Shown piece by piece: positions 3,359 to 17,649 of a stretch of DNA of 64,000 nucleotides (positions are counted from its first letter, which is position 1; each line of letters starts with the position of its first letter). This DNA is from Phycisphaeraceae bacterium. Lineage in GTDB: Bacteria > Planctomycetota > Phycisphaerae > Phycisphaerales > Zrk34. The notes below the pieces were generated by a model. The model was not told the origin of the DNA. It did no database searches and was given only the letters and a program-made list of their open reading frames with translations. The translations under genes were made by a program, and so were the position numbers. The stretch lies in assembly GCA_028282805.1 (NCBI GenBank), contig JANQHD010000028.1, positions 1 to 64,000 of the forward strand, given 5' to 3'.

Positions 3359-3505
3359 TGTCCTATATTTGTTTCTTGGCCTCGTTGGTGAAAAACAAAA
3401 CGGGGCAATATCTGGCTAGAAATATTGTCCCAACGAGCGACCGTCTAGTTGCCGTGTCGATTTCCATGGATGACAATCAGTTTGATTAACCGGAGGAGGT
3501 TTGCG

Positions 3506-6500
3506 ATGACGCGTTTGCAGATTGTTCTGTATGTGGTGGGTTTTCTGTTGATTGCCACTTCGTTTGCCTCGGCTACAACCAACACTTGGCAGGGCGGTAC
3601 CGGTGATTGGGGAGATATGAACTGGTCGGTTGATGGTGGTGCTGACCAGCCAATCCTGGTCGACGACCCTGCGCTGTTTGTGGGTGAAGACTTTATTTTC
3701 GACAACAGCATCGGAGTATTCAGCGGCCAGACCATGACGCGAATCGGCGACGTCCACCTCGAAGGTGGTAGCTGGACACATACAACGGGGGCTATTCAAA
3801 TCATACAAGGGGATGACAGCGATGCGAACGTCTTCGATCTAGGGTTCAACGAGGTCGCGACGACGCTGTTGATGTCCGGCGACGCAGCGCTGGTTGTGAC
3901 TAATCCCGGAAACAGTGCAAATCAGGGGAACAACATCACGCGCATTCGAGAGGGGTTTGTTTCGCTGTCTGATGATGCTGCGATCGTAACCGATGCGCGG
4001 TTTCAGATTCTTCAGAACGCTGATCTGTTGATGATGGATAACGCCAGCATTCATGCGGGCAACTTCCAATTCGGTGCGGGGCAGGGCGCGGGAAACCTCG
4101 GCACGTTGTTTACCTTCGAAAGCGGTACGCTGACTGTGACAGATCCGAACGGCCTGCGGGCGAACGGTCTAGGCGCGAATGGGACGTACGGGCGCCCTTT
4201 GGCCAACACGGTTAACTTCACGGGTGGTGTGGGCTCTGCTCAAATCGTCTTGGAAGACAACTCAGACGACGACTTGAACTTTGAGCTATCGCGTGGTTAC
4301 TTCGCGATAGACGGGCAGATCGTGTTCGACAAGTACACGTACGTGAACGGCATGGGCTTGGCGGTAAATCGGGTGGGTGCGATCGACACGCTTGAGATCA
4401 TCGAGCGCCCTGAGGGGAATATTCAATGGATATCGGATACCGACGGTGTCTGGTCAGAATCGACTAATTGGGACCCGGGCGTCGTGCCGATCGATGGAAC
4501 AAGAGACATCTATTTCAACTCATCCACGGTTAGGGGAAACACGGATCGAATCATCACACTGGACACCGGCGTAGCCGTGAACCGGATGGTTTTCGCCTCT
4601 GTTGAAAATGCATACCAGATCCGTGACGATTCGGCCAATGCGATCCATTTGATCGATGATGCAGAGATCCGAACATTGGCTGAGAATGAAACGCACGTGA
4701 TCATGGCGATCATCGGCGGTAACTCCGGTCTACACAAAACCGGTGCCGGTCAATTGAACTTAACCAATGTCAATACGTATTCGGGAATGACGGTTGTCGA
4801 ACAAGGAAACCTTGAAGTTGACTTCACCTCGGCATTAGGCGTTGAAGATGGGACCGCAACAAACGGAACATTGGTACTTCCGGGTGCATTACTTGTAGTC
4901 AACGATAAAGACAGCGATGGCGGAGGCGGTGGAGGGCCCTTCTTCGCCCCAGAGAACGGCGGCGAAGGAGAAACAACCTCCCAGGAACTGGTTACACTCG
5001 CCGGTGGCGAGGTGCTTGCGTTTGGGAACTCAGAGTTTCCGATCCGTCTGGAAGGCCAAGGAACCGTAAGACTGATCCAATATTACGGCAAGATATCCGG
5101 CTCCGGGGACCTGATAGCATCTAATGCCAACCTGTATACCGCTAACAACTATGAGGGGCTGACGATCGTCACGGGCGAACTCGACGCGCGGCATCCCATG
5201 GCGCTGGGATCCACCGACCAGCCTACTTTCGTCATGCCGGACGCGAGAGCGATTGTTACCGCAAACACAGAAGAAGAAATCCACGTTAAAGACTCTGTGC
5301 TCTGGATCTCAGTCGAAGACTACACAGGACCGGTGATCATGCGATCCGGTCTCATCCAATCCAGAGAAAACGTCAGTGCTTCACTCGCCTCACCGCTAAT
5401 CTTGCAAGGCAGGGTTGATCTGGGGCAGCCGGCTTTTGACTTTGACAATAATCCGCTAAGGCTGAATGCTGGCACGATTGGCAAGGGCGAGCTATCCATC
5501 ACCGGGATCAACCGCATCGATGGACCGATCGCGCACGAAGGAACGCTCCGCGTAACCGGATCAGTAGCGATTGGGACGTCCGAACCGATCGATTTGCCGA
5601 TTATCTTGGATGATGCGAGCATCGCATTCGCCCAATCGAGGGTTGCGCCACAACTCGTGATGCTCCAAGATAGCACAGTCAACGGCTTCAACGGGGTTTC
5701 GTTAACCTGGCCCGAGTCCACACTGCGAGTCAACAGCGGGAAATTCAACTTGCCGATCGAAGGGGTCAGCGAAGTCATCAAGACCGGTGATGATACCGTC
5801 TACCTATTTGATATCGGGTTCGACAACGACGCGGTAGTTCGTGTCGAGGGGGGGACGCTCTACGTCGACACGCATGAGGGGCTTGGCAACAGCACCGGCC
5901 ACACTGAGATTACCAGCCGAGCGGGAGCTGCAGTATCACTGAGTGGCCGAAACGATATGGAGTGGCATGAGAGCTTTGTGTTAAACAACGCGACCGGCAT
6001 TCAACAGCTCGGCGCGTTGCGTGGTACGGGCATTTTGCACGGCAGCATCGATCTAGGTTCAGAGGGAGCGAGCGTTTCCGGAAGCAGATTTTATCTCAAT
6101 GGCGCGATCACCGGCGGCGACCTGACTGTGATTGGTGATAGTATTCGCATGACCGGGGTTGACAAGCAGTACAGCGGTACGACGTACGTTGGTGTCCCGG
6201 AAGTATCCTCGGGCTCGCTTATCTTACAGCAGGATACGCGGCTCAGCCATTCACCAACGATCGTGGTGCACCGGGGAAGCAACCTCACCCACTTCGCATC
6301 CGCCAACGACGTCAATAAAGTGCGCGACGACCTCGTACTCGAGTTGCGAGGCGGCTTGTTGCATGTGAGCTCTGCCAGCAGCCTAATCATGGGCGACCTT
6401 GTCGTCGGGGACAACTTGAGCGACGTGTACGCCGACGGTCAAATCCAGATACAGGCCCTCAGACGGGCCGGTAGGGGGGGCGTGATCTTCCAACTCGAGA

Positions 6501-8644
6501 ACGTCCAGGCCACCGCACCGGAGACGATGGTCAACGGCATCATCGGGGCATGGGCGTACGCCACCCGTGATCGTTCAACCACCGACTTCGCCACGTTGGA
6601 CGCGTCGGATTTCATCGTTGAACTCGACAAGTCTGAACGGCCGTTTGAGCTGAACGGAGCGAACCCCTCCGACAACATCTTGATCCAATCCAACCCCGTG
6701 GCGATGCTCGCTAACCACACTGTCAACTCGTTGGCTTTCTCCGAAGTGACGACCGACGATAACGCGCTAGTTGACCTTGGCGGATTTGAATTGGACGTCC
6801 TGAGTGGGGGAGTTGCGAACTTCGATGTGGACGAAGTGATGATCGCCAACGGCAGACTGACCTCAAGCTACACGAAAGAGCTTATCGTATTCGCGGACTC
6901 TACGATCTCGATCGGAGCAGACATCGTCGACGCTCCCGGCGGCCCCGTAGGCCTGACCATCCTCGAGAGGGGCGGCCGTATCAAGCTGTCCGGCCAGAAC
7001 ACATTCAGCGGACCGGTCTACTTGGCTGGTGATCAGAGTGGTCACGCAGCACTGGACATCCTCAACCAGAACGCAATCCCTACGGGAGCTGATCTGACCA
7101 ACTATGGCAGCAGCGTGCGATTCGAGTTTGCCGATCCGGTCAGCCTAGGTGAGGTTCTCATCGGCGAAGACGGCGACTTGCAAGGCGAACTGATCGAGGC
7201 CTCTTCGATTGAACTTCGATCGGGTAGTGTTGAATCGATCGTAGGTGAGACCCCGGTATTTAAAACGACCTACGGGCAAGCGTCGTTGGGCATGGGAGAG
7301 GACTATGCCGGGCTTGTGACCGTAGACCAGGGCGAGCTTCGTGTATTCGGCCAATCCACGGGGGCAGAGTTCCGAGTTCTGCAGAAAGGCGAGTTGCGCT
7401 GGGAGATACTCGGGGCCAATCACCACATCGACTTGGCGAATGGTTCGCTCGTCCTCGATCGGGACGCAAGAGTGGAAGGTCATGTCACGGTCTCCTTGGA
7501 TAGTCGGATCGTGATTTCGCGGCTTTACGACCGCGGCAGCGACCCGGTCATCAACGACCTCACAATCGATGATTCCCGTCTGGATGTCGTGGGAGACCCA
7601 AGACTCGACTTGACCGTAGAGGGCATCGTTGAACTGAGCGGCGATACGAGCATCCTGATCGATCGCAACCTGGTCGTGTTCGACGGTAAGATCGAAAACT
7701 CCGACGACGACACGACGCTGCACCTCGTTGGCAATCCTTATTACGACGGCCAGTTACAGCTTAATGCCGACAACTCTCAACTCACAGCCCCCATCAACAT
7801 AACTGACTTGATCGTATCCATTGGCCACCCGAACGCCCTTGGCTCGGGGAGGACCACGGTTGGGAACGGAGCCATCATCCAATTCAACCCAGGTGAATAC
7901 GACGTCGACCTGCATATCGATGGCGGACGCATCAACCCCGACGAAGAAACGGTGTTGCACGGCAACATATCGCTCGGTGGCCAAACAAGGTTAGGCTATA
8001 GCATGTTCAGCCCCCTGGTCTTGCACACGACTGGGTCGCTATCGATGAGCGACGAGGCGGAGTTGGTGGTTGATCTGTTTGATCCGATCACGAGGGGTTA
8101 CCTCGATCCCGAGTCCCACGACCAGGTGATCGTCGAAGGCGCGGCGAGTCTGGCGGGAGGCCTAAAGATCAATCAGATGTATCCCTACACACTCGATCCC
8201 AAAGACGACGTGGTGATCTTGTCTGCGAACACGATCTCGGGAGTGTTTGATCAGGACAAGATCACGGGCTATCTGACGGATGACAGCAATCTGCGAATCG
8301 CCGTTCTTTACGACACCACTGAGGAGGCAGATCGAGAATCAGCCATCGACTTCGTTCGTTTAGTGGCTACACTGCCTGGCGACGCTAATGGTGATGGCCG
8401 GGTCAGCCTCATCGACCTCAATCGACTTGGGCAATCGTTCGGTGTGAGCGGAACTTGGCAGAACGGAGACTATAACTATGACGGCGTGATAGGATTGAGC
8501 GACTTCAGCCTGTTGAGTCAAAACTACAATCAATCCGTCCTTCAGTCCGTAGCCGCCAGTTCGACGATCATGCCTGAGCCATCGAGTTTAGTTCTGCTCA
8601 GCATGGTACTGCTCGGCGGATTTCGGAGAAGTAATCGTTTGTAG
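3506..8644 (+). CDS. Giant secreted beta-strand-repeat protein with dockerin and PEP-CTERM tail
   Basis: A 1,712-residue secreted protein. The start at 3506 is set by GGAGGAGG at 3492-3499 and by the signal peptide MTRLQIVLYVVGFLLIATSF. The body is a long beta-helix-like stretch with autotransporter-associated strand repeats, for example HKTGAGQLNLTNVNTYSGMT, a motif of the TIGR02601 type. Near the C-terminus is a dockerin type I-like pair, GDANGDGRVSLIDLNRLGQS and NYDGVIGLSDFSLLSQNY, which binds calcium in known cases. The last residues are PEPSSLVLLSMVLLGGF plus basic residues, a PEP-CTERM exosortase signal. There is no outer-membrane barrel, so export and surface attachment would go through exosortase. 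It probably acts as a surface or matrix adhesin; the ligand is unknown. Its GC content resembles the island, not the backbone. Confidence 0.85.
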   Translation: MTRLQIVLYVVGFLLIATSFASATTNTWQGGTGDWGDMNWSVDGGADQPILVDDPALFVGEDFIFDNSIGVFSGQTMTRIGDVHLEGGSWTHTTGAIQIIQGDDSDANVFDLGFNEVATTLLMSGDAALVVTNPGNSANQGNNITRIREGFVSLSDDAAIVTDARFQILQNADLLMMDNASIHAGNFQFGAGQGAGNLGTLFTFESGTLTVTDPNGLRANGLGANGTYGRPLANTVNFTGGVGSAQIVLEDNSDDDLNFELSRGYFAIDGQIVFDKYTYVNGMGLAVNRVGAIDTLEIIERPEGNIQWISDTDGVWSESTNWDPGVVPIDGTRDIYFNSSTVRGNTDRIITLDTGVAVNRMVFASVENAYQIRDDSANAIHLIDDAEIRTLAENETHVIMAIIGGNSGLHKTGAGQLNLTNVNTYSGMTVVEQGNLEVDFTSALGVEDGTATNGTLVLPGALLVVNDKDSDGGGGGGPFFAPENGGEGETTSQELVTLAGGEVLAFGNSEFPIRLEGQGTVRLIQYYGKISGSGDLIASNANLYTANNYEGLTIVTGELDARHPMALGSTDQPTFVMPDARAIVTANTEEEIHVKDSVLWISVEDYTGPVIMRSGLIQSRENVSASLASPLILQGRVDLGQPAFDFDNNPLRLNAGTIGKGELSITGINRIDGPIAHEGTLRVTGSVAIGTSEPIDLPIILDDASIAFAQSRVAPQLVMLQDSTVNGFNGVSLTWPESTLRVNSGKFNLPIEGVSEVIKTGDDTVYLFDIGFDNDAVVRVEGGTLYVDTHEGLGNSTGHTEITSRAGAAVSLSGRNDMEWHESFVLNNATGIQQLGALRGTGILHGSIDLGSEGASVSGSRFYLNGAITGGDLTVIGDSIRMTGVDKQYSGTTYVGVPEVSSGSLILQQDTRLSHSPTIVVHRGSNLTHFASANDVNKVRDDLVLELRGGLLHVSSASSLIMGDLVVGDNLSDVYADGQIQIQALRRAGRGGVIFQLENVQATAPETMVNGIIGAWAYATRDRSTTDFATLDASDFIVELDKSERPFELNGANPSDNILIQSNPVAMLANHTVNSLAFSEVTTDDNALVDLGGFELDVLSGGVANFDVDEVMIANGRLTSSYTKELIVFADSTISIGADIVDAPGGPVGLTILERGGRIKLSGQNTFSGPVYLAGDQSGHAALDILNQNAIPTGADLTNYGSSVRFEFADPVSLGEVLIGEDGDLQGELIEASSIELRSGSVESIVGETPVFKTTYGQASLGMGEDYAGLVTVDQGELRVFGQSTGAEFRVLQKGELRWEILGANHHIDLANGSLVLDRDARVEGHVTVSLDSRIVISRLYDRGSDPVINDLTIDDSRLDVVGDPRLDLTVEGIVELSGDTSILIDRNLVVFDGKIENSDDDTTLHLVGNPYYDGQLQLNADNSQLTAPINITDLIVSIGHPNALGSGRTTVGNGAIIQFNPGEYDVDLHIDGGRINPDEETVLHGNISLGGQTRLGYSMFSPLVLHTTGSLSMSDEAELVVDLFDPITRGYLDPESHDQVIVEGAASLAGGLKINQMYPYTLDPKDDVVILSANTISGVFDQDKITGYLTDDSNLRIAVLYDTTEEADRESAIDFVRLVATLPGDANGDGRVSLIDLNRLGQSFGVSGTWQNGDYNYDGVIGLSDFSLLSQNYNQSVLQSVAASSTIMPEPSSLVLLSMVLLGGFRRSNRL

Positions 8645-8711: not shown

Positions 8712-10004
8712 TTAACTGTGTGCGTTTATAATGTTGTACGCTTCGGGAGTGAACTCAATCGTAATCTCTTTCCCACGCGAATGAATTTCCACCCGCTGAA
8801 TCAATTGCGGTAAGAGTCTGCGTTGAGTTACCGTTTATAGACCATTCCACATAGTTCGACACGCATCAGCCTTGGCGGCGCGGCCAGTCGTGTTTTTCAG
8901 AAGATTAAACCACCCTTTGTTCGCGGCCAGGTAGTCACCAACCCGCCGCTCCAACTCGTACGCGTCGTATTGGGAGCCCCTGCAGGGTGGCCGCCCACCC
9001 GCTGTGGAGCGGCAGCGGTAGTATCGGTACAGGACCTTGGCTTGGCCCTTCTTTCGGGGAATGGAATAGGGGCTCATCGTCCGTTTGCACTTGGGACAGA
9101 TCACCTTACCGCGTAACGGGAATTCAATTTTATATCCCCCGCCTCCGGAAGTTTGAGTGGTTTTTCGACGGTCGATCTGATCCTGAACGCTCTGGAACAA
9201 TACCTCATCGACCAGGGCCTCGTGGCTACCTTCCCTAGTCGTTTCCCCATCCCTAAAGCGCCCGCGATAGATGGGATTCCTGAGCAGGGCGGTGACCTGT
9301 CGTGTAGTCCACTTCCCGCCTCCAGTGCGGTTGCCGGTGCGTTTGGCAACGTAAATCTTGGTGCGCCACCCCTTGCGGTTGATGCGTTCGGTGATCTCGG
9401 AAGGGCGGAGGCCCTCGGCGGCCATCTTAAAGATGGCCCTCACCCGCCTGGCTTCCCCGCGGTTGGGGATCAGCTGCTTGGTTTCGTGATCGGCGTCGTA
9501 ACCGTAGGGGGGCTTGCCGGCCAACCGGCGCCCATGTTGTTTAAGGTAGCTGCGGGTGTCGGCCAGACGCTCCTTGATCATCTCCCGTTCGAACTCGGCG
9601 AATGAGGCCATGATATTGCGCAGTAGCTGAGTGTCGGCGTTGGCCGGTCCGGAAGGCAGATCGGCCGCGTGGATCTCCACGCCGGCTCGGTCGCACTCAT
9701 CCATAAGTTGGAGCGTGTAGGTGGTCCGGCGGGATAGGCGGTCGAGCGCGGTGATGTAGAGGCGTTGGATTTTCTTCTGCTCGATGACCTTTCGCAGCCG
9801 TTTGAGGGCGGGGCGGTCCAGGGTGTCGCCCGAAAAGCCCTCGTCATCGAACCGCTGGCCGATCCAATACAGCTTCTCGCCGGACGAACGAGCGTGTTCC
9901 CGGCAGGTCTCGAATTGCGCCTTGCACGAACTGGGCACGGCGTGAGACTCAGTCGACTGGCGGGTGTAGATCGCGTATCGAATGGGTGTGGGCTGACGTG
10001 GCAT
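8712..10004 (-). pseudogene. Large serine recombinase with in-frame stop
   Basis: A site-specific serine recombinase/resolvase. The catalytic domain starts IRYAIYTRQSTES (nucleophile Ser in RQSTES), with DEGFSGDTLDRPAL and ALDRLSRR. A Recombinase domain (KPPYGYDADHE... LLRNPIYRG) and a zinc beta-ribbon (CPKCKRTM and YYRCRS) follow. The frame ends at TAA 8835-8837 after 389 residues, but the same frame continues for 40 codons as TVTQRRLLPQLIQRVEIHS..., which is the usual C-terminal end of this family, to a second stop at 8712. I therefore read it as a gene with one nonsense mutation removing about 40 residues; the catalytic domain is intact, so activity cannot be excluded. It lies directly downstream of the tracrRNA, on the same strand. 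Confidence 0.75.
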
Positions 10005-10047: not shown

Positions 10048-10154
10048 AAAAACAGCCGCCATGCAGAACAGGGCGGCTGGTCGCTCCGTAGAGCGTGGCC
10101 TGCGAATCTTTCTTCTTGTTACGAAAAGACCGCGAGCCAAGGTCGAATACACTA
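10048..10154 (-). ncRNA. tracrRNA of the type II-C CRISPR locus
   Basis: On the minus strand, 10153-10118 aligns to the complement of the whole 36-nt CRISPR repeat. The first 15 bases (AGTGTATTCGACCTT) are identical and 28 of 36 match overall, most mismatches being compatible with G-U pairs; the end CGTAAC pairs with the repeat start GTTGCG. Downstream come a short linker, a nexus-like hairpin CGCTC-TACG-GAGCG (10096-10083), then a terminator hairpin AGCCGCC/GGCGGCT (10078-10072 with 10060-10054) followed by GTTTTT. The transcript of about 107 nt contains anti-repeat, nexus and terminator as in Neisseria-type tracrRNAs. It would pair with the crRNA repeat, recruit RNase III and be bound by Cas9. 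Confidence 0.9.
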
Positions 10155-10160
10155 GAGATA

Positions 10161-10189
10161 ATCATCTCTCAATCCTCCGGGTAATGCAA
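10161..10189 (-). promoter_or_regulatory. Candidate tracrRNA promoter
   Basis: On the minus strand TTGCAT (10189-10184), 17 bases, then GATGAT (10166-10161). Transcription would begin about seven bases later, at the first bases of the anti-repeat. The -10 matches the consensus at four of six positions. Confidence 0.5.
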
Positions 10190-10205: not shown

Positions 10206-10234
10206 TTGAGGTGCGATATTGGCTGGTTTATACT
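10206..10234 (+). promoter_or_regulatory. Candidate cas9 operon promoter
   Basis: TTGAGG at 10206-10211, a 17-base spacer, then TATACT at 10229-10234. It is back to back with the tracrRNA promoter and would give a leader of about 40 nt before cas9. The 8-mer TAATCATC occurs between the two promoters at 10159 and again at 10192, so a shared operator is possible. Confidence 0.55.
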
Positions 10235-10279: not shown

Positions 10280-13200
10280 ATGACTACCTTGGGGCTCGAC
10301 CTTGGTCCGAACTCGATCGGTTGGGCGCTGCTTGATGAAGATTCAGGCGTCATTTTGGATTTGGGCGTTCGCGTTTTCCCGGAGGGGGTCGATAAGTTTG
10401 ATACCGCCAAGGAAGCTTCGCGCAACGAGCAGCGACGTGTGGCCAGGGGGATGCGTCGGCAAATCGCTCGACGGGCGCGGCGGAAACGCCGGTTGAGACA
10501 AGCCTTGATCGCGGCGGGGCTTTACCCTGCGGATTCGGCGGAACAAGCGGCACTGGAAAACCGTGATCCATATGAACTTCGCGCATGCGCGCTGCGAGAA
10601 CCGCTTGCCCCCTATGAGATTGGCCGAGCCATCCTGCACCTGAACCAACGGCGTGGGTTCCAGTCCAACCGTAAGAAAGATCGGGGTGACAGCGAGGTCA
10701 AGGGCATGCTCGCGGAGATCAGTGACCTGGAAGCCGACATGGGCGGTCGCACGCTGGGGCAGTATCTCAACGACAAGCTCAAGGAGTTGGATCACACCCA
10801 ACGTGATGAAGACGCCGCCGATCGCATCCGTAACCGCCATACGCGGCGAGACATGCTTCTTCGTGAGTTTGACGCGATCTGGCAAGCTCAGCTAAAACAC
10901 CACCCCGATCTCTTGACGGATCGGTTGCGTTGGGGAGAAGTCGGACCTCAACAGTACCCACACAAACCCGATCGCCGGCCGAAAGGGCACAGCCACTTAG
11001 AAGCGTTTGGTCTTGAGGGCATCCTGTTCTACCAGCGCCCGATGTATTGGCCTCGTTCGGTGGTAGGGCACTGCGAACTAGAACCGAAGGAGAAGCGTTG
11101 TCCGCGTGCGGATCGCCTGGCTCAGCGCTTCCGACTCCTGCAGGAGGTGAGCAACCTCAAATACATCGATCCCGATTCACACGTCGAGGCCATACTCGAC
11201 GATACTCAACGCCAGATCGTATTGGGATACTTAGCTGAGCGAGAGAAGGCGACCTTCGACCAGATACGCAAAAAGCTCGGTTTCACCGAAGCGGTCAAGT
11301 TCAATATCGAGCGCGGTGAACGCTCATCGCTTAAGGGCATGATCACCGATTGGCAGATCGCCAAGGCTGTCGGCAAAGACTGGCACCACCGACCCGATAA
11401 CGAGAAGAACGCCATCGCGGCACTATTGCTCGACACGGCGGACGAAAACACGGCGGTGGATCTGCTGGTTAAAGACCACGGCTTGACGGGAGAACAGGCC
11501 GATGCAGTGGTGGGGATCGATTTTCCGGCCGGCTACATCCATTTGTCACGTAAGGCGTTAATGAATCTGCTGCCGCACATGGACCGCGGATTGATTTACA
11601 TGGCCGAAGATGAAAGCAATTCCGCGCTGCACGCCGCGGGCTATTTGCGCCGCGATGAAATGCAACGCCGACTCTTCGATCGACTGCCAGACCCTAGGCG
11701 GAGCCGTGACTGTCCGATCGGTGACATCCCCAATCCCGTCGTCAAGCGTGCGTTGGTGGAGCTGCGCAAGGTGGTCAACGCGATCATCCGAGAGCACGGC
11801 AAGCCGGACGCGGTCCACGTGGAGATGGCGCGTGAGATCCGCCAGGGCTCGGATGCACGCCGTAAATACAACAAACGTATTCGGGAACGTGAGGCTCGCC
11901 GTGACTACGCCGCCGATGAGATCCGTAAACTCAAAGTCAGGGTCAGTCGTGATTCGATCCTGCGCTATTTGTTTTGGGAGGATCAGAACCACGAGTGTGT
12001 TTACTGCGGCAACAAGATCAGCCAAGCCCAGTTGTTCGGTGGGGAGGTGGATGTCGATCACATCCTGCCGTACTCCCGATGTCTCGATGATTCTCAGGGC
12101 AACAAGGTGGTCTGCCACCGCCGATGCAACGCCGACAAGGGGCAGCGCACGCCTTATGAATGGTTAGCAGCCTCTGACCCCAAGGCTTACGAACAGGTCT
12201 GTCAGCACGTCTCTTCATTAATGCGCAAAGGTTTGCTGCCGTATGGCAAGTACCGCAAGTTCCTGCAAAAGGAATTGGAGCTCGACGATTTCATCGCTCG
12301 GCAGCTGGTCGATACCGGTTATATCGCTCGAGCCACTGTAGAATACCTGCGTTGCTTGTTCGATCAGGATCACGCGGTGCTTGGTCTGAAAGGGCAGCTC
12401 ACGGGCGAACTGCGGCGGCAGTGGGGACTGAACGACATCTTGCGCGATGATGGGCTGGACCGGAAAACCCGTGACGACCACCGCCACCACACTGTGGATG
12501 CGGTCGTTGTCGCCCTGACCAACCGCCGTCGGCTTCAGCAGCTGACCCGAATCCGCAAGGCGGGTGGCGTGGCTCAGACCGGTGAGGCCTTGGATTGGCC
12601 GTGGGATGGATTCCGTGAGGAAGTTGTTAAGCGTGTCAACCGCATCAACGTCTCGCACCGTGTCCAGCGTAAGGTCGCCGGCGCCCTGCACAAGGATTCG
12701 TTCTATGGCCCGACTGACCAGCCCGATGTGTTTGTCAAACGCAAGCCCTTGATTGATCTGTCACCGAGCGAGATCGACAAGATTCGCGATCCCGGCATCC
12801 AGGCGATCGTGAAGCGGGCTCTAAGTGATGCAGGAATCACATTTGGTCGCGGCAAGAAACCCGACCGCAAGAAGATGAAAGAGGTGCTCGCTCACTTGGC
12901 GATGCCTTCTGGTGTGCCGATCAAGAAAGTTCGCCTATTGGTGAATGAGAAGACGATCCAACCCATCCGGACGGGGCGGTCTGACCAAGCGTACGTCAAG
13001 CCAGGCTCTACGCACCATCTGTGTCTCTTCGAGTGGGATAACAAAGGCAAAACCAAGCGAGAAGCAGTTTTTGTGACCATGCTCGAAGCTGCGAAGCGGA
13101 TTAAATGTGGCGAGGCGATCATCCAACGTACGCCGCCGGTCGAACACCCTGCGATCCCTTCGGACGCACGCTTTGTCATGTCGCTGAGCCGCGGCGAGAT

Positions 13201-13402
13201 GGTCCTTGTGGCGTGTGAGGACGAAGAGAAACTACTTGTTTACTCCACAGCGGCCCAGACATCAGGCCAGATGTGGTTTTGGGATCATACCGATGCTCGC
13301 AATAGCTTGGACAAGAAGACTTACAGTTTCAAGGCCAACACACTCAACGCCCGCAAGGTTACCGTCGACCCGCTGGGGCGTATCCGTTGGGCGAACGACT
13401 GA
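10280..13402 (+). CDS. cas9: Type II-C Cas9 nuclease, 1,040 aa
   Basis: RNA-guided DNA endonuclease. From the ATG at 10280: RuvC-I MTTLGLDLGPNSIGWALL with Asp7; an arginine-rich bridge helix around residues 50-75 (RRQIARRARRKRRLRQ); a REC lobe containing LFYQRPMYW; RuvC-II VHVEMAREI with Glu515; an HNH domain with VDVDHILPYSRCLDDSQGNK (Asp593, His594) and Asn617; RuvC-III DDHRHHTVDAVVVALT with His737 and Asp740; then a C-terminal PAM-interacting region. All catalytic residues seem present. The HNH domain also has Cys573-x2-Cys576 and Cys612-x3-Cys616, a likely zinc site that is absent from the Neisseria and Campylobacter enzymes I can recall. The size and the lack of csn2 or cas4 fit subtype II-C. 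An earlier in-frame start at 10211 overlaps the promoter and is less likely. It forms an operon with cas1 and cas2. Confidence 0.97.
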   Translation: MTTLGLDLGPNSIGWALLDEDSGVILDLGVRVFPEGVDKFDTAKEASRNEQRRVARGMRRQIARRARRKRRLRQALIAAGLYPADSAEQAALENRDPYELRACALREPLAPYEIGRAILHLNQRRGFQSNRKKDRGDSEVKGMLAEISDLEADMGGRTLGQYLNDKLKELDHTQRDEDAADRIRNRHTRRDMLLREFDAIWQAQLKHHPDLLTDRLRWGEVGPQQYPHKPDRRPKGHSHLEAFGLEGILFYQRPMYWPRSVVGHCELEPKEKRCPRADRLAQRFRLLQEVSNLKYIDPDSHVEAILDDTQRQIVLGYLAEREKATFDQIRKKLGFTEAVKFNIERGERSSLKGMITDWQIAKAVGKDWHHRPDNEKNAIAALLLDTADENTAVDLLVKDHGLTGEQADAVVGIDFPAGYIHLSRKALMNLLPHMDRGLIYMAEDESNSALHAAGYLRRDEMQRRLFDRLPDPRRSRDCPIGDIPNPVVKRALVELRKVVNAIIREHGKPDAVHVEMAREIRQGSDARRKYNKRIREREARRDYAADEIRKLKVRVSRDSILRYLFWEDQNHECVYCGNKISQAQLFGGEVDVDHILPYSRCLDDSQGNKVVCHRRCNADKGQRTPYEWLAASDPKAYEQVCQHVSSLMRKGLLPYGKYRKFLQKELELDDFIARQLVDTGYIARATVEYLRCLFDQDHAVLGLKGQLTGELRRQWGLNDILRDDGLDRKTRDDHRHHTVDAVVVALTNRRRLQQLTRIRKAGGVAQTGEALDWPWDGFREEVVKRVNRINVSHRVQRKVAGALHKDSFYGPTDQPDVFVKRKPLIDLSPSEIDKIRDPGIQAIVKRALSDAGITFGRGKKPDRKKMKEVLAHLAMPSGVPIKKVRLLVNEKTIQPIRTGRSDQAYVKPGSTHHLCLFEWDNKGKTKREAVFVTMLEAAKRIKCGEAIIQRTPPVEHPAIPSDARFVMSLSRGEMVLVACEDEEKLLVYSTAAQTSGQMWFWDHTDARNSLDKKTYSFKANTLNARKVTVDPLGRIRWAND

Positions 13403-13417
13403 CAGGAGATTCCGGGC

Positions 13418-14356
13418 ATGATCAAGCGTACGATCGAGATCTCGCGTCATCCCGCGCATCTGTCTGTCAAGCACGATCAGCTCAAGGTTCAACGGCACAC
13501 CGATGACGAGTCCGGTCCGTTGGAAGCGTCGATCCCGTGTGAAGACATCGGTGTGATGGTCGTCGATCACCACCAGACCACATACACCCACCAGGCCCTG
13601 GCTCGATTGGTCGAGCACGGCGCCGCGGTAGTGATCTGCGGTCGTAACCATCAACCAACCGGGTTGCTCTTGCCCATCAGTTCCAACACGGAAACCGTCA
13701 CTCGCTTACACGAGCAGATCGGGGCGACCCAACCACTCGTCAAGCAACTATGGAAGCAGATCGTTGTCGCCAAGGTCAGAGCACAAGCGACGGCGCTGCC
13801 CGATCATTTACCCGAAAAGATCCGTCTGAAAAAGATGCAATCCGAGGTCCGATCGGGCGATCCGACCAACGTGGAAGCTCAGGCCGCCAAGACCTACTGG
13901 GCGGGTTGGCGCAAGGTCGACTCAAGGCTGATAGCGTTTCGCCGTGATCCCGATGGGGATGATCCGGCCAACGGCATGCTGAACTATGGTTATACCGTGC
14001 TCCGTGCCTCGATGGGGCGTGCGATCATTGCGGCCGGTCTGCATCCGGCCTTGGGGGTTCACCATACGCATCGAGCCAACGCGTTTGCCTTGGCGGATGA
14101 CTTGATTGAGCCTCTGCGCCCGATCATCGATGGGGCGGTATTCCAGATGCTCATGAACGATCAGACCGACCTTACCCAAGACAACAAAGCTGTTCTGCTC
14201 GGCAAGCTCACGAGCCCCGTCCGAACCGATGGGCAGGTTGGGCCGCTCATGGTGTCGTTGCACAGGTATGTCGCCTCTCTGGTCTGGTGCTATCGCCGGG
14301 AACAAAAAAAACTGGTTTTCCCGGTCTATGTGGGCGATAATCCCGATGGTGACTGA
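13418..14356 (+). CDS. cas1: Cas1 integrase
   Basis: Spacer-acquisition integrase, 312 residues, working as a Cas1-Cas2 complex. The metal-binding residues can be placed at Glu153 (NVEAQAAKTYW), His215 or 216 (LGVHHTHRANAF) and Asp228/Glu231 (LADDLIEPLRP), matching type II Cas1 proteins. It starts 15 bases after cas9, with CAGGAG as ribosome binding site, and its stop overlaps the cas2 start (TGATG), so translation of the two is probably coupled. Together with Cas2 and Cas9 it should insert new spacers of about 30 nt in the neighbouring array. Confidence 0.96.
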   Translation: MIKRTIEISRHPAHLSVKHDQLKVQRHTDDESGPLEASIPCEDIGVMVVDHHQTTYTHQALARLVEHGAAVVICGRNHQPTGLLLPISSNTETVTRLHEQIGATQPLVKQLWKQIVVAKVRAQATALPDHLPEKIRLKKMQSEVRSGDPTNVEAQAAKTYWAGWRKVDSRLIAFRRDPDGDDPANGMLNYGYTVLRASMGRAIIAAGLHPALGVHHTHRANAFALADDLIEPLRPIIDGAVFQMLMNDQTDLTQDNKAVLLGKLTSPVRTDGQVGPLMVSLHRYVASLVWCYRREQKKLVFPVYVGDNPDGD

Positions 14357-14685
14357 TGTATATTTCCGGGTACCGATGTATGTGGCTCGTAGCGATGTTC
14401 GACCTACCGGTCGACACGAAAAAAGCTCGACGTGCCTATGCCCAGTTCCGCAAAAAGTTGTTGCAGGATGGGTTTTCCAAGATGCAGTTCTCGGTATACA
14501 TCCGTCACTGCGCCAGCGAGGAAAACACGGATGTCCATGAAAAACGTGTTGAAAACGCACTCCCACCCGACGGCGAGGTCAGGATTATTCGCATCACGGA
14601 CAAGCAATATGAACGAATGTCTGTATTTTGGGGTAAAAAACGCCGCCCACCCGAGCCTCCACCGGCTCAATTGGAGCTTTTTTAG
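14356..14685 (+). CDS. cas2: Cas2, adaptation complex subunit
   Basis: A 109-residue ferredoxin-fold Cas2, the structural partner of Cas1. The first strand MWLVAMFDLPVDTKKARRAY has the conserved Asp16 and is followed by KLLQDGFSKMQFSVYIR and the strand VRIIRITDKQYERM. It ends in a proline-rich tail, PEPPPAQLELF. The start ATG overlaps the cas1 stop by one base; an internal ATG at residue 9 is an alternative. It is the last gene of the cas9-cas1-cas2 operon, and a perfect hairpin follows directly. Confidence 0.95.
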   Translation: MYISGYRCMWLVAMFDLPVDTKKARRAYAQFRKKLLQDGFSKMQFSVYIRHCASEENTDVHEKRVENALPPDGEVRIIRITDKQYERMSVFWGKKRRPPEPPPAQLELF

Positions 14686-14687
14686 CG

Positions 14688-14717
14688 CACAAAATAGGCG
14701 TAAGCGCCTATTTTGTG
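14688..14717. terminator. Perfect 13-bp hairpin between cas2 and the array
   Basis: CACAAAATAGGCG (14688-14700), loop TAAG, CGCCTATTTTGTG (14705-14717). It starts two bases after the cas2 stop and ends 18 bases before the first repeat, so it lies between two convergent transcription units and could terminate both. The arm carries its own T run on each strand. Confidence 0.65.
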
Positions 14718-14735: not shown

Positions 14736-17208
14736 AGTGTATTCGACCTTAGCCCGTGATCAATCCGCAACGCTGGGGCATCGAAGCCGGCTCGGGCATC
14801 AAGTGTATTCGACCTTAGCCCGTGATCAATCCGCAACGCGGGGCCGGTGCGGATCGCCAGCTGCACGAGTGTATTCGACCTTAGCCCGTGATCAATCCGC
14901 AACGACCTGAGTGGTGGGGCCTCGTCGATCTGGAGTGTATTCGACCTTAGCCCGTGATCAATCCGCAACACGTCTCGGCGCTGAAAACAACCGGGTGCGA
15001 GTGTATTCGACCTTAGCCCGTGATCAATCCGCAACCGTAAGGTAGTGACGTAGCTTACCTTCAACAGTGTATTCGACCTTAGCCCGTGATCAATCCGCAA
15101 CCATTACATTCTTTGGCATGTTGGGCATGTCAGTGTATTCGACCTTAGCCCGTGATCAATCCGCAACTGTCAGATCGGAGGTCACGCCGGACGCAAAAGT
15201 GTATTCGACCTTAGCCCGTGATCAATCCGCAACGTGGCCTGCCCAACCCCCCCCGTACTAACAAGTGTATTCGACCTTAGCCCGTGATCAATCCGCAACA
15301 CTACATCACCGCGGGAACGATCATCGAGGAGTGTATTCGACCTTAGCCCGTGATCAATCCGCAACGAGCCACAGTACATCCGCGTCATGCATACAGTGTA
15401 TTCGACCTTAGCCCGTGATCAATCCGCAACGTGCTGCGCGGCTTCGAGCGGCCGAAGGTGAGTGTATTCGACCTTAGCCCGTGATCAATCCGCAACTTGC
15501 TTCGCATACTCCGAGTGGGGTGGTTGAGTGTATTCGACCTTAGCCCGTGATCAATCCGCAACCAGCCGCCGATCGTGCCCGCGTTGCGTTCAAGTGTATT
15601 CGACCTTAGCCCGTGATCAATCCGCAACGACCCGAGCGGCTAGGTCGCACGCGTGAGCAGTGTATTCGACCTTAGCCCGTGATCAATCCGCAACGATGCC
15701 GCGGCCAAGGTGCGAGACATTCCAGTGTATTCGACCTTAGCCCGTGATCAATCCGCAACACCGTACGTCTTGCCGTCTTTGCCGACGCAAGTGTATTCGA
15801 CCTTAGCCCGTGATCAATCCGCAACGTCTTCACCGAGTGCGACACGTAGTATGTCAGTGTATTCGACCTTAGCCCGTGATCAATCCGCAACCCAATTAGC
15901 GGGTCAGACGCAATCAATGTAGTGTATTCGACCTTAGCCCGTGATCAATCCGCAACCAACGCTACATTGGTCAGTCCGGTGGTCGCAGTGTATTCGACCT
16001 TAGCCCGTGATCAATCCGCAACGAGGCGCAGGTCCGGCCGGTGGTCGCGAAAGTGTATTCGACCTTAGCCCGTGATCAATCCGCAACGGGACCGGACATG
16101 ATCCCAGCCGCATCGGGAGTGTATTCGACCTTAGCCCGTGATCAATCCGCAACTGTGACGCGGCCTCTCGCGACATTTGACTAAGTGTATTCGACCTTAG
16201 CCCGTGATCAATCCGCAACTGGCCGTTGATTAGCAAGGCATACGGCCGCAGTGTATTCGACCTTAGCCCGTGATCAATCCGCAACGAAGCAATGGCGGCA
16301 CTGGTAGCGGCGAACAGTGTATTCGACCTTAGCCCGTGATCAATCCGCAACATGGTGTGGCAGATGTCTGCAAACACCAACAGTGTATTCGACCTTAGCC
16401 CGTGATCAATCCGCAACTCAACGACAGCGGTGCCGCCAGTTCTGGTTAGTGTATTCGACCTTAGCCCGTGATCAATCCGCAACGTTGCGCCCATCAGCAA
16501 GCCGCCGGAGCGCAGTGTATTCGACCTTAGCCCGTGATCAATCCGCAACTGTCGTGGAGCGTCGCCGAGGCTCAGGTGGAGTGTATTCGACCTTAGCCCG
16601 TGATCAATCCGCAACGGTGAACCAAATGGCAAGCTCGCGACGCTGAGTGTATTCGACCTTAGCCCGTGATCAATCCGCAACTATATTCCGCGATTAAGGC
16701 ACGCGACGCCGAGTGTATTCGACCTTAGCCCGTGATCAATCCGCAACTTGATCGGCGCGCTTGAGATACTCATCGAGAGTGTATTCGACCTTAGCCCGTG
16801 ATCAATCCGCAACTACCAAAGATGTCGCAGGAAGCAATAGAACAGTGTATTCGACCTTAGCCCGTGATCAATCCGCAACCTGCTGCTCTGTCGAACCGCT
16901 TGGCCGGGGAGTGTATTCGACCTTAGCCCGTGATCAATCCGCAACCGTAGCCGATCCAGCGCTGCCGGCGATGTAGTGTATTCGACCTTAGCCCGTGATC
17001 AATCCGCAACACCGGACAGATCGGCGAGACCGACGTCAAGAGTGTATTCGACCTTAGCCCGTGATCAATCCGCAACTGGTCGATCGGTGCGCCGGTCGAG
17101 GGCAACAGTGTATTCGACCTTAGCCCGTGATCAATCCGCAACGAGTTGCGGGGGGGGTGTTACTGGATTGCCAGTGTATTCGACCTTAGCCCGTGATCAA
17201 TCCGCAAC
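14736..17208 (-). CRISPR. Type II-C CRISPR array, 38 repeats and 37 spacers
   Basis: A 36-bp repeat occurs 38 times without a single base change that I can see. On the plus strand it begins AGTGTATTCGACCTTAGCCC and ends GATCAATCCGCAAC. Spacers are 30 bp, except five of 29 bp (those ending just before repeats at 15395, 15724, 15921, 16052 and 16975). The tracrRNA shows the crRNA strand is the minus strand, where the repeat begins GTTGCGG. Read that way, each repeat holds TTGATC at positions 9-14 and TACACT at 31-36, spaced by 16 bases: a promoter-like element as in Neisseria, from which each crRNA could be transcribed by itself. The array converges on cas2. The degenerate last repeat often seen at one end of an array is absent. 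Confidence 0.98.
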
Positions 17209-17512: not shown

Positions 17513-17578
17513 GATTCCCCTCGTTCCTGTTCCAGACCGGTCGCGCTTTAAGCCAAAGCCAGCTGCGCTGACATGCGC

Positions 17579-17620
17579 GCTTATGATTCTAATGTTCTCA
17601 AGAACATTAGAATCATAAGC
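17579..17620. repeat. Perfect 20-bp inverted repeat
   Basis: Left arm GCTTATGATTCTAATGTTCT (17579-17598), two bases CA, and the exact reverse complement at 17601-17620. It is AT-rich in a GC-rich setting, lies 67 bases outside the right direct repeat and 30 bases beyond the kinase stop. It could terminate the kinase transcript, bind a dimeric protein or be an element end. Confidence 0.8.
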
Positions 17621-17649
17621 GGCCGAAATAATCTTGTGCGCAAGGGTGA

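Follow-up and report, generated by a model that had tools for sequence, protein, structure and literature searches.

Does the minus strand just upstream of cas9 encode the tracrRNA of the neighbouring CRISPR array, and on which strand are the crRNAs of this array then made? To answer this, we have analysed the whole 64,000-nt stretch of planctomycete DNA (the window) together with the relatives of its Cas9. On the basis of anatomy, conservation and covariation, we put the probability that minus-strand 10153-10048 is the tracrRNA gene of a type II-C CRISPR-Cas locus at about 95%.

The locus is ordered cas9-cas1-cas2-array, with no other ORF in between (Table 1). All three cas genes score above the curated cut-offs, and the RuvC and HNH signatures of Cas9 are intact (TIGR01865, PF13395, PF18541), while neither csn2 nor cas4 was found in the locus. 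Judged from these sequences, the window is a standard type II-C locus, i.e., a known kind of system. The first-pass annotation had likened the organisation to Neisseria-type systems; this resemblance holds at the subtype level, as the solved proteins most similar to this Cas9 are II-C Cas9s of the Neisseria type. For the spacers, no protospacer was found for two of them in IMG/VR, nor for the whole array against phage records.

Table 1 Features of the window's locus (numbers without prefix) and of related loci (prefix L).
Feature	Position	Strand	Evidence or remark
tracrRNA gene, anti-repeat to terminator T run	10048-10153	minus	complementary to the repeat; z = -11.6 when folded with it; covarying pairs across 12 relatives
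36-nt anti-repeat	10118-10153	minus	28/36 against complement of repeat, first 15 exact; simulated maximum 24
Nexus-like hairpin CGCTC-TACG-GAGCG	10082-10095	minus	folds; 3/5 pairs changed on both sides in relatives
Terminator hairpin and five T	10048-10079	minus	folds; 7/8 pairs changed on both sides in relatives
Candidate tracrRNA promoter TTGCAT-17-GATGAT (weak)	10161-10189	minus	7 nt before anti-repeat; position as in 28 relatives
Candidate cas9 promoter TTGAGG-17-TATACT	10206-10234	plus	consensus scan only; 1 found vs 0.5 expected
cas9, 1040 aa, type II-C	10280-13402	plus	TIGR01865, 694 bits; RuvC_III, HNH_4; nearest solved: Neisseria-type Cas9
cas1 (type II)	13418-14356	plus	TIGR03639, 240 bits
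cas2	14356-14685	plus	TIGR01573, 69 bits
CRISPR array, 38 identical 36-nt repeats, 37 spacers of 29-30 nt	14736-17208	crRNA strand minus (GTTGCGG...TACACT)	strand from anti-repeat
Ectopic repeat/guide region	L070:9402-9500		
Ectopic repeat/guide region	L075:5222-5380		
Ectopic repeat/guide region	L081:468-575		
Ectopic repeat/guide region	L111:64-210		
tRNA, Ala body, Arg anticodon CCT (identity as in L070)	L130:1501-1573		directly upstream of cas9
tRNA, Leu body, Trp anticodon CCA (identity as in L075)	L128:1501-1588		directly upstream of cas9
tRNA, Leu body, Ser anticodon TGA (identity as in L111)	L129:252-339		directly upstream of cas9
Ala-like RNA, irregular arms (as in L081)	L131:632-701		directly upstream of cas9

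The array repeat reads AGTGTATTCGACCTTAGCCCGTGATCAATCCGCAAC on the plus strand and GTTGCGGATTGATCACGGGCTAAGGTCGAATACACT in the crRNA sense, and the anti-repeat reads AGTGTATTCGACCTTGGCTCGCGGTCTTTTCGTAAC on the minus strand from 10153 to 10118. A full-length match of this kind had been claimed from a first reading of the letters, and we have recovered it with the same coordinates, the same number of matches and the same exact run at its start. In the 61 kb outside the array, the next-best matches to the complement of the repeat reach 19 positions on the same strand and 21 on the other. In addition, we have simulated 100 sequences that keep the length (61 kb) and the dinucleotide make-up, where the best match is 24 and the mean 21.4, compared with 28 for the anti-repeat. 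A chance match is thus ruled out; that is, the complementarity of the tracrRNA to the repeat exceeds chance. The anti-repeat is present once in the 3.9-Mb genome.

When the repeat and the anti-repeat are folded together, they form a duplex of -54.8 kcal/mol with an 8-bp lower stem, an internal loop and then about 25 bp, which is almost complete once G-U pairs are counted. Joined by a linker, the repeat and the tracrRNA fold at -82.7 kcal/mol (z = -11.6), and the best structure contains the lower stem, the upper stem, the nexus (CGCUC-UACG-GAGCG, 10095-10082) and the terminator (CAGCCGCC..GGCGGCUG-UUUUU, 10079-10048). The first-pass annotation had proposed co-folding of repeat and anti-repeat, which yields the full scaffold when the rest of the tracrRNA is included, and the nexus-like hairpin and T-run terminator that it had described after the anti-repeat both lie in this best fold and both covary in relatives. 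If the tracrRNA is folded alone, the anti-repeat partly pairs with the linker, and nexus and terminator are unchanged. No Rfam family was matched at the tracrRNA.

To evaluate conservation, we have used some 80 relatives of the Cas9, from searches counted as 1,966 genomes with overlapping draws; those that are named are Planctomycetota MAGs. Nearly all relatives whose upstream DNA is readable have an anti-repeat there on the opposite strand to cas9, usually at 64-180 nt from the gene. Across 36 relatives, cognate duplexes have a mean of -54.4 kcal/mol, while swapped partners have -29.3; the cognate partner is the best one for 27 of the 36, and one of the two best for 33. The window's repeat, too, forms its strongest duplex with its own anti-repeat in this partner swap. 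In an alignment of 12, 94.6% of the cells pair, and both partners have changed in 21 of 42 pairs, compared with 9.8 after shuffling (none of 500 shuffles is as high). If the partner is slid by 1-3 columns, only 2-4 such pairs remain. Repeat, anti-repeat, nexus and terminator have thus been selected as an RNA structure. One relative (L003) has two tracrRNA copies on the same strand, at 5110-5209 and 5810-5921, about 700 nt apart.

The first-pass annotation had further held that the tracrRNA fixes the strand of the crRNAs and is antisense to cas9. The former stands: from the strand of the anti-repeat and the conserved position of the tracrRNA promoter in relatives, we infer that the crRNA strand is minus and that the array is transcribed opposite to the cas operon. 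Of the latter, only the strand stands, which is indeed opposite to cas9. The two do not overlap, since the cas9 start codon is at 10280 and 126 nt lie between them, and "divergent from cas9" is the correct wording. In 28 relatives, sigma-70-like boxes similar to TTGACA-16/18-TATAAT are seen at a fixed place, with 4-8 nt between their end and the anti-repeat, which puts the expected start of the transcript at about the first bases of the anti-repeat. The boxes of the window keep this position and spacing and are the weakest of the 29 scored (7 of 12), and because of this the tracrRNA may be expressed at a low level in the window's host. For the array, the repeat ends with TACACT in the crRNA sense, with a TTG 16-17 nt before it as judged by eye in the family repeats, and this end resembles the repeat-embedded -10 boxes of II-C systems. 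Variant repeats are located at the cas-distal end of the array in L071 (12508-12741), L076 (13882-13917) and L101 (13054-13089), so the end far from cas2 should be the old one, with new spacers probably being inserted beside cas2. Between cas2 and the first repeat there is a hairpin, AAAATAGGCG-TAAG-CGCCTATTTT (14685-14716), which is terminator-like both ways.

The tracrRNA might also be read on the plus strand, with the array transcribed together with the cas genes and the hairpin AGAGAT-AATC-ATCTCT as the nexus, given that an anti-repeat can pair on either strand and that this 6-bp hairpin does follow it on the plus side. However, there is no terminator on that side and the hairpin is without counterpart at that place in the relatives read, whereas covariation is seen for the nexus and terminator of the minus side, the promoter boxes of the relatives point to minus, and in II-C systems the array is read against the direction of the cas genes. 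We have rejected this reading on promoter, terminator and conservation, and regard it as next to impossible. As for the activity of the gene, the weak promoter boxes relative to those of the relatives, and a serine recombinase gene right downstream that is absent from the relatives' loci, could be taken as marks of a defunct locus whose tracrRNA gene has decayed and fallen silent. Yet the frames of cas9, cas1 and cas2 are intact, the repeats of the array are identical throughout, and the partner swap gives the window's own anti-repeat as the strongest partner of its repeat, which makes decay very improbable.

Another reading concerns regulation. In S. pyogenes, a II-A system, a long tracrRNA form (tracr-L) acts as a natural single guide and represses the cas promoter (PMC11417352), and the divergent cas9 and tracrRNA promoters of the window, 126 nt apart, as well as six relatives with a degenerate repeat and a promoter-matching guide in the same gap, would suit a similar role of the window's tracrRNA in repressing cas9. 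But the window has no degenerate repeat or repeat-head candidate upstream of cas9, and none of its array spacers is aimed at the cas9 promoter, i.e., none has a seed match of at least 10 nt near it; a search of the window for tracr-L, an ectopic repeat or a tRNA found none. Hence a tracr-L-like function of the window should be given little credence, at about the same low level as decay.

The ordinary guide function of a minus-strand tracrRNA remains our preferred reading. The promoter just before the anti-repeat would drive the tracrRNA away from cas9, and the RNA would pair along the whole 36-nt repeat of the minus-strand crRNAs. The duplex would then be trimmed by the RNase III of the host, while lower stem, nexus and terminator hairpin would hold the guide in Cas9, and the loaded Cas9 would presumably cut matching invader DNA. 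What the window offers is therefore a complete guide scaffold and the probable crRNA strand of a planctomycete II-C Cas9 of 1040 aa, with dozens of covarying relatives.

Several other features are seen around the locus. The serine recombinase gene (8835-10004, minus) begins 44 nt past the tracrRNA terminator on the same strand, and could be expressed by read-through from the tracrRNA promoter; it was rejected as a part of the CRISPR system, as no relative locus has a homologue. A perfect 20-bp inverted repeat (44 nt, 17578-17621) is located past the end of the array, before a protein kinase gene, and Rfam miRNA matches on both strands are spurious and arise from this palindrome. Further upstream, an ORF of 1731 aa (3449-8644) matches an autotransporter-type beta-strand repeat (TIGR02601) and is adjoined by an IS3/IS481-type transposase (1669-2985).

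Among the relatives, we do have observed a module in the gap upstream of cas9, in L070, L075, L081, L111, L171 and L173. Here, a degenerate repeat in the crRNA sense is located 190-455 nt before cas9, and 9-12 nt at the 3' end of its spacer correspond to a promoter within that gap. The matches (| marks the match end) are TCTGTGGTGTAA|GGGATAT in L070, just before TTGACA..TATAAT; GGCAAGCCGTGG|AGGGTAA in L075, between TTGACA and TAAAAT; TCTGGTCGCAA|GGGATTT in L081, over a -35-like box; CGGTTATTA|TAGATTA in L111, on the -10 box; AGGGGTCTGG|GGGATAT in L171, inside the promoter directly before cas9; and CGGTGGCTTTCA|AGATACT in L173, just before TTGACA. The flanks fit NRGRT in five of the six, with L173 as the exception, so that a PAM close to this motif is predicted. 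As the contig of L111 has no full array, the family repeat was used for it, and one terminal array repeat (4870-4905) supports its match. As a control, 671 array spacers were compared with the 700 nt upstream of their own cas9, and a match of 10 nt was found twice and one of 11 nt never. It has been reported for S. pyogenes that 11 matching nucleotides suffice to repress the cas promoter (PMC11417352). The three ectopic repeats that were checked pair with their own tracrRNA at -34 to -53 kcal/mol. The module appears at five separate places of the Cas9 tree (L070, whose row is too short, is left out). The window's Cas9 is of the same family, yet its locus is without the module.

In four of the six relatives, the targeted promoter appears to drive a tRNA or tRNA-like gene, and then mostly cas9. 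A tRNA lies between this promoter and cas9 in L070, L075 and L111 (ARAGORN, Rfam), while in L081 this place is taken by a tRNA-like RNA whose only match, below threshold, is to the model of the tRNA-like mascRNA. Of the 6 loci with the module, 3 have a tRNA on the cas9 strand no more than 350 nt away, vs 1 of 76 others (p = 0.0009), and in the sole case without the module (L078) the tRNA is located beyond the tracrRNA. We have compared the tRNA bodies with the other tRNAs of these genomes. The body in L070 is closest to tRNA-Ala, including the G3:U70 pair of the acceptor stem, with the anticodon CCT (Arg); those in L075 and L111 are closest to tRNA-Leu, with the anticodons CCA (Trp) and TGA (Ser), respectively; and the RNA in L081 is closest to tRNA-Ala, with irregular D and anticodon arms. 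Alanyl- and leucyl-tRNA synthetases recognise their tRNAs independently of the anticodon, so each of these tRNAs is expected to carry an amino acid other than the one that its codon calls for. Judged from the sequence, each of the four genes is preceded by a hairpin. In L075, L081 and L111, cas9 comes no more than about 70 nt later, so the two are probably co-transcribed, while in L070 a terminator-like hairpin separates the tRNA and cas9. L171 has no tRNA. In L173, about 300 nt upstream of cas9, the targeted promoter would drive a structured leader without a recognisable tRNA.

These findings can be read as a Cas9-guided switch. The ectopic crRNA-like RNA would guide Cas9 to the promoter over a 9-12-nt seed, too short for cutting, and the bound Cas9 would repress the promoter of the 5' hairpin, the tRNA of switched identity and, in most, cas9 itself. 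If Cas9 were lost or blocked by an anti-CRISPR, transcription of cas9 and the miscoding tRNA would be released. We consider Cas9-guided repression alone to be likely in these relatives. The full reading, i.e., a Cas9-based CreTA whose mistranslating tRNA is a putative toxin, toxicity included, is more tentative, and we hold it to be somewhat less probable than an even bet. The cas9 of L070 (9880-13035) has one in-frame TAA, either a real loss or a sequencing error; unless it is an error, the supposed toxin should have been released, which counts against this reading. As L171 is without a tRNA and L173 has a leader without a recognisable one, what the modules have in common may be autoregulation, with the tRNA as an extra.

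If the switch is real, Cas9 systems would have an addiction or autoregulation switch of their own, with a miscoding tRNA as payload. In the literature searched, such CreR/CreTA logic is reported for type I and V-A effectors (PMC12737573, PMC8501985, PMC9458426), and within the open-access literature we have found no report of Cas9 combined with a tRNA in such a switch. Overall, the finding in the window is ordinary, and it is the relatives' module that deserves laboratory work.

Compared with known systems, the window carries only cas9-cas1-cas2, like the II-C loci of Clostridium cellulolyticum, Pasteurella pneumotropica and Neisseria meningitidis (PMC7038990, PMC7708072, PMC3936727), and shares with them the anti-repeat tracrRNA upstream of cas9 and, most probably, the opposite array; the repeat end, too, may be promoter-like as in these loci. 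It differs from them in repeat, scaffold and Cas9 sequence. Known II-C traits include an array opposite to the cas operon (PMC3936727, PMC7038990), the position of the tracrRNA gene before cas9, repeats that end like a promoter, and the insertion of new spacers at the last repeat (PMC3936727, PMC7038990, PMC7708072, PMC12080349). The duplex of the window spans the full repeat at -54.8 kcal/mol, while the published median for II-C consensus repeats is -31, obtained by a different method (PMC12080349).

For the relatives, the closest comparison is with systems in which a short guide would regulate rather than cut. In the S. pyogenes II-A system, tracr-L, which is made from the tracrRNA locus, brings Cas9 to the cas promoter with about 11 nt of guide (PMC11417352). 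In the relatives, too, a short guide would direct Cas9 to a promoter, but this guide is on a separate degenerate repeat unit, which the window does not have. As described in PMC9458426, scaRNA of the Francisella novicida II-B system also combines a degenerate repeat and a short guide, by which a catalytically active Cas9 represses transcription; the genes repressed there encode lipoproteins and lie elsewhere, whereas the target in the relatives is in the same gap upstream of cas9. With CreTA/CreR (PMC8501985, PMC9458426, PMC12737573), the six relatives share the ectopic degenerate repeat, the partial guide match at a promoter, with a PAM-like flank (NRGRT) in five of them, and the linkage to cas genes. 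On the other hand, the linked effector is not the type I effector (Cascade) but a II-C Cas9, which would act with its tracrRNA, and while the CreT RNAs described so far act by sequestering tRNAs or by blocking translation in another way, the product in the relatives would be a tRNA of switched identity.
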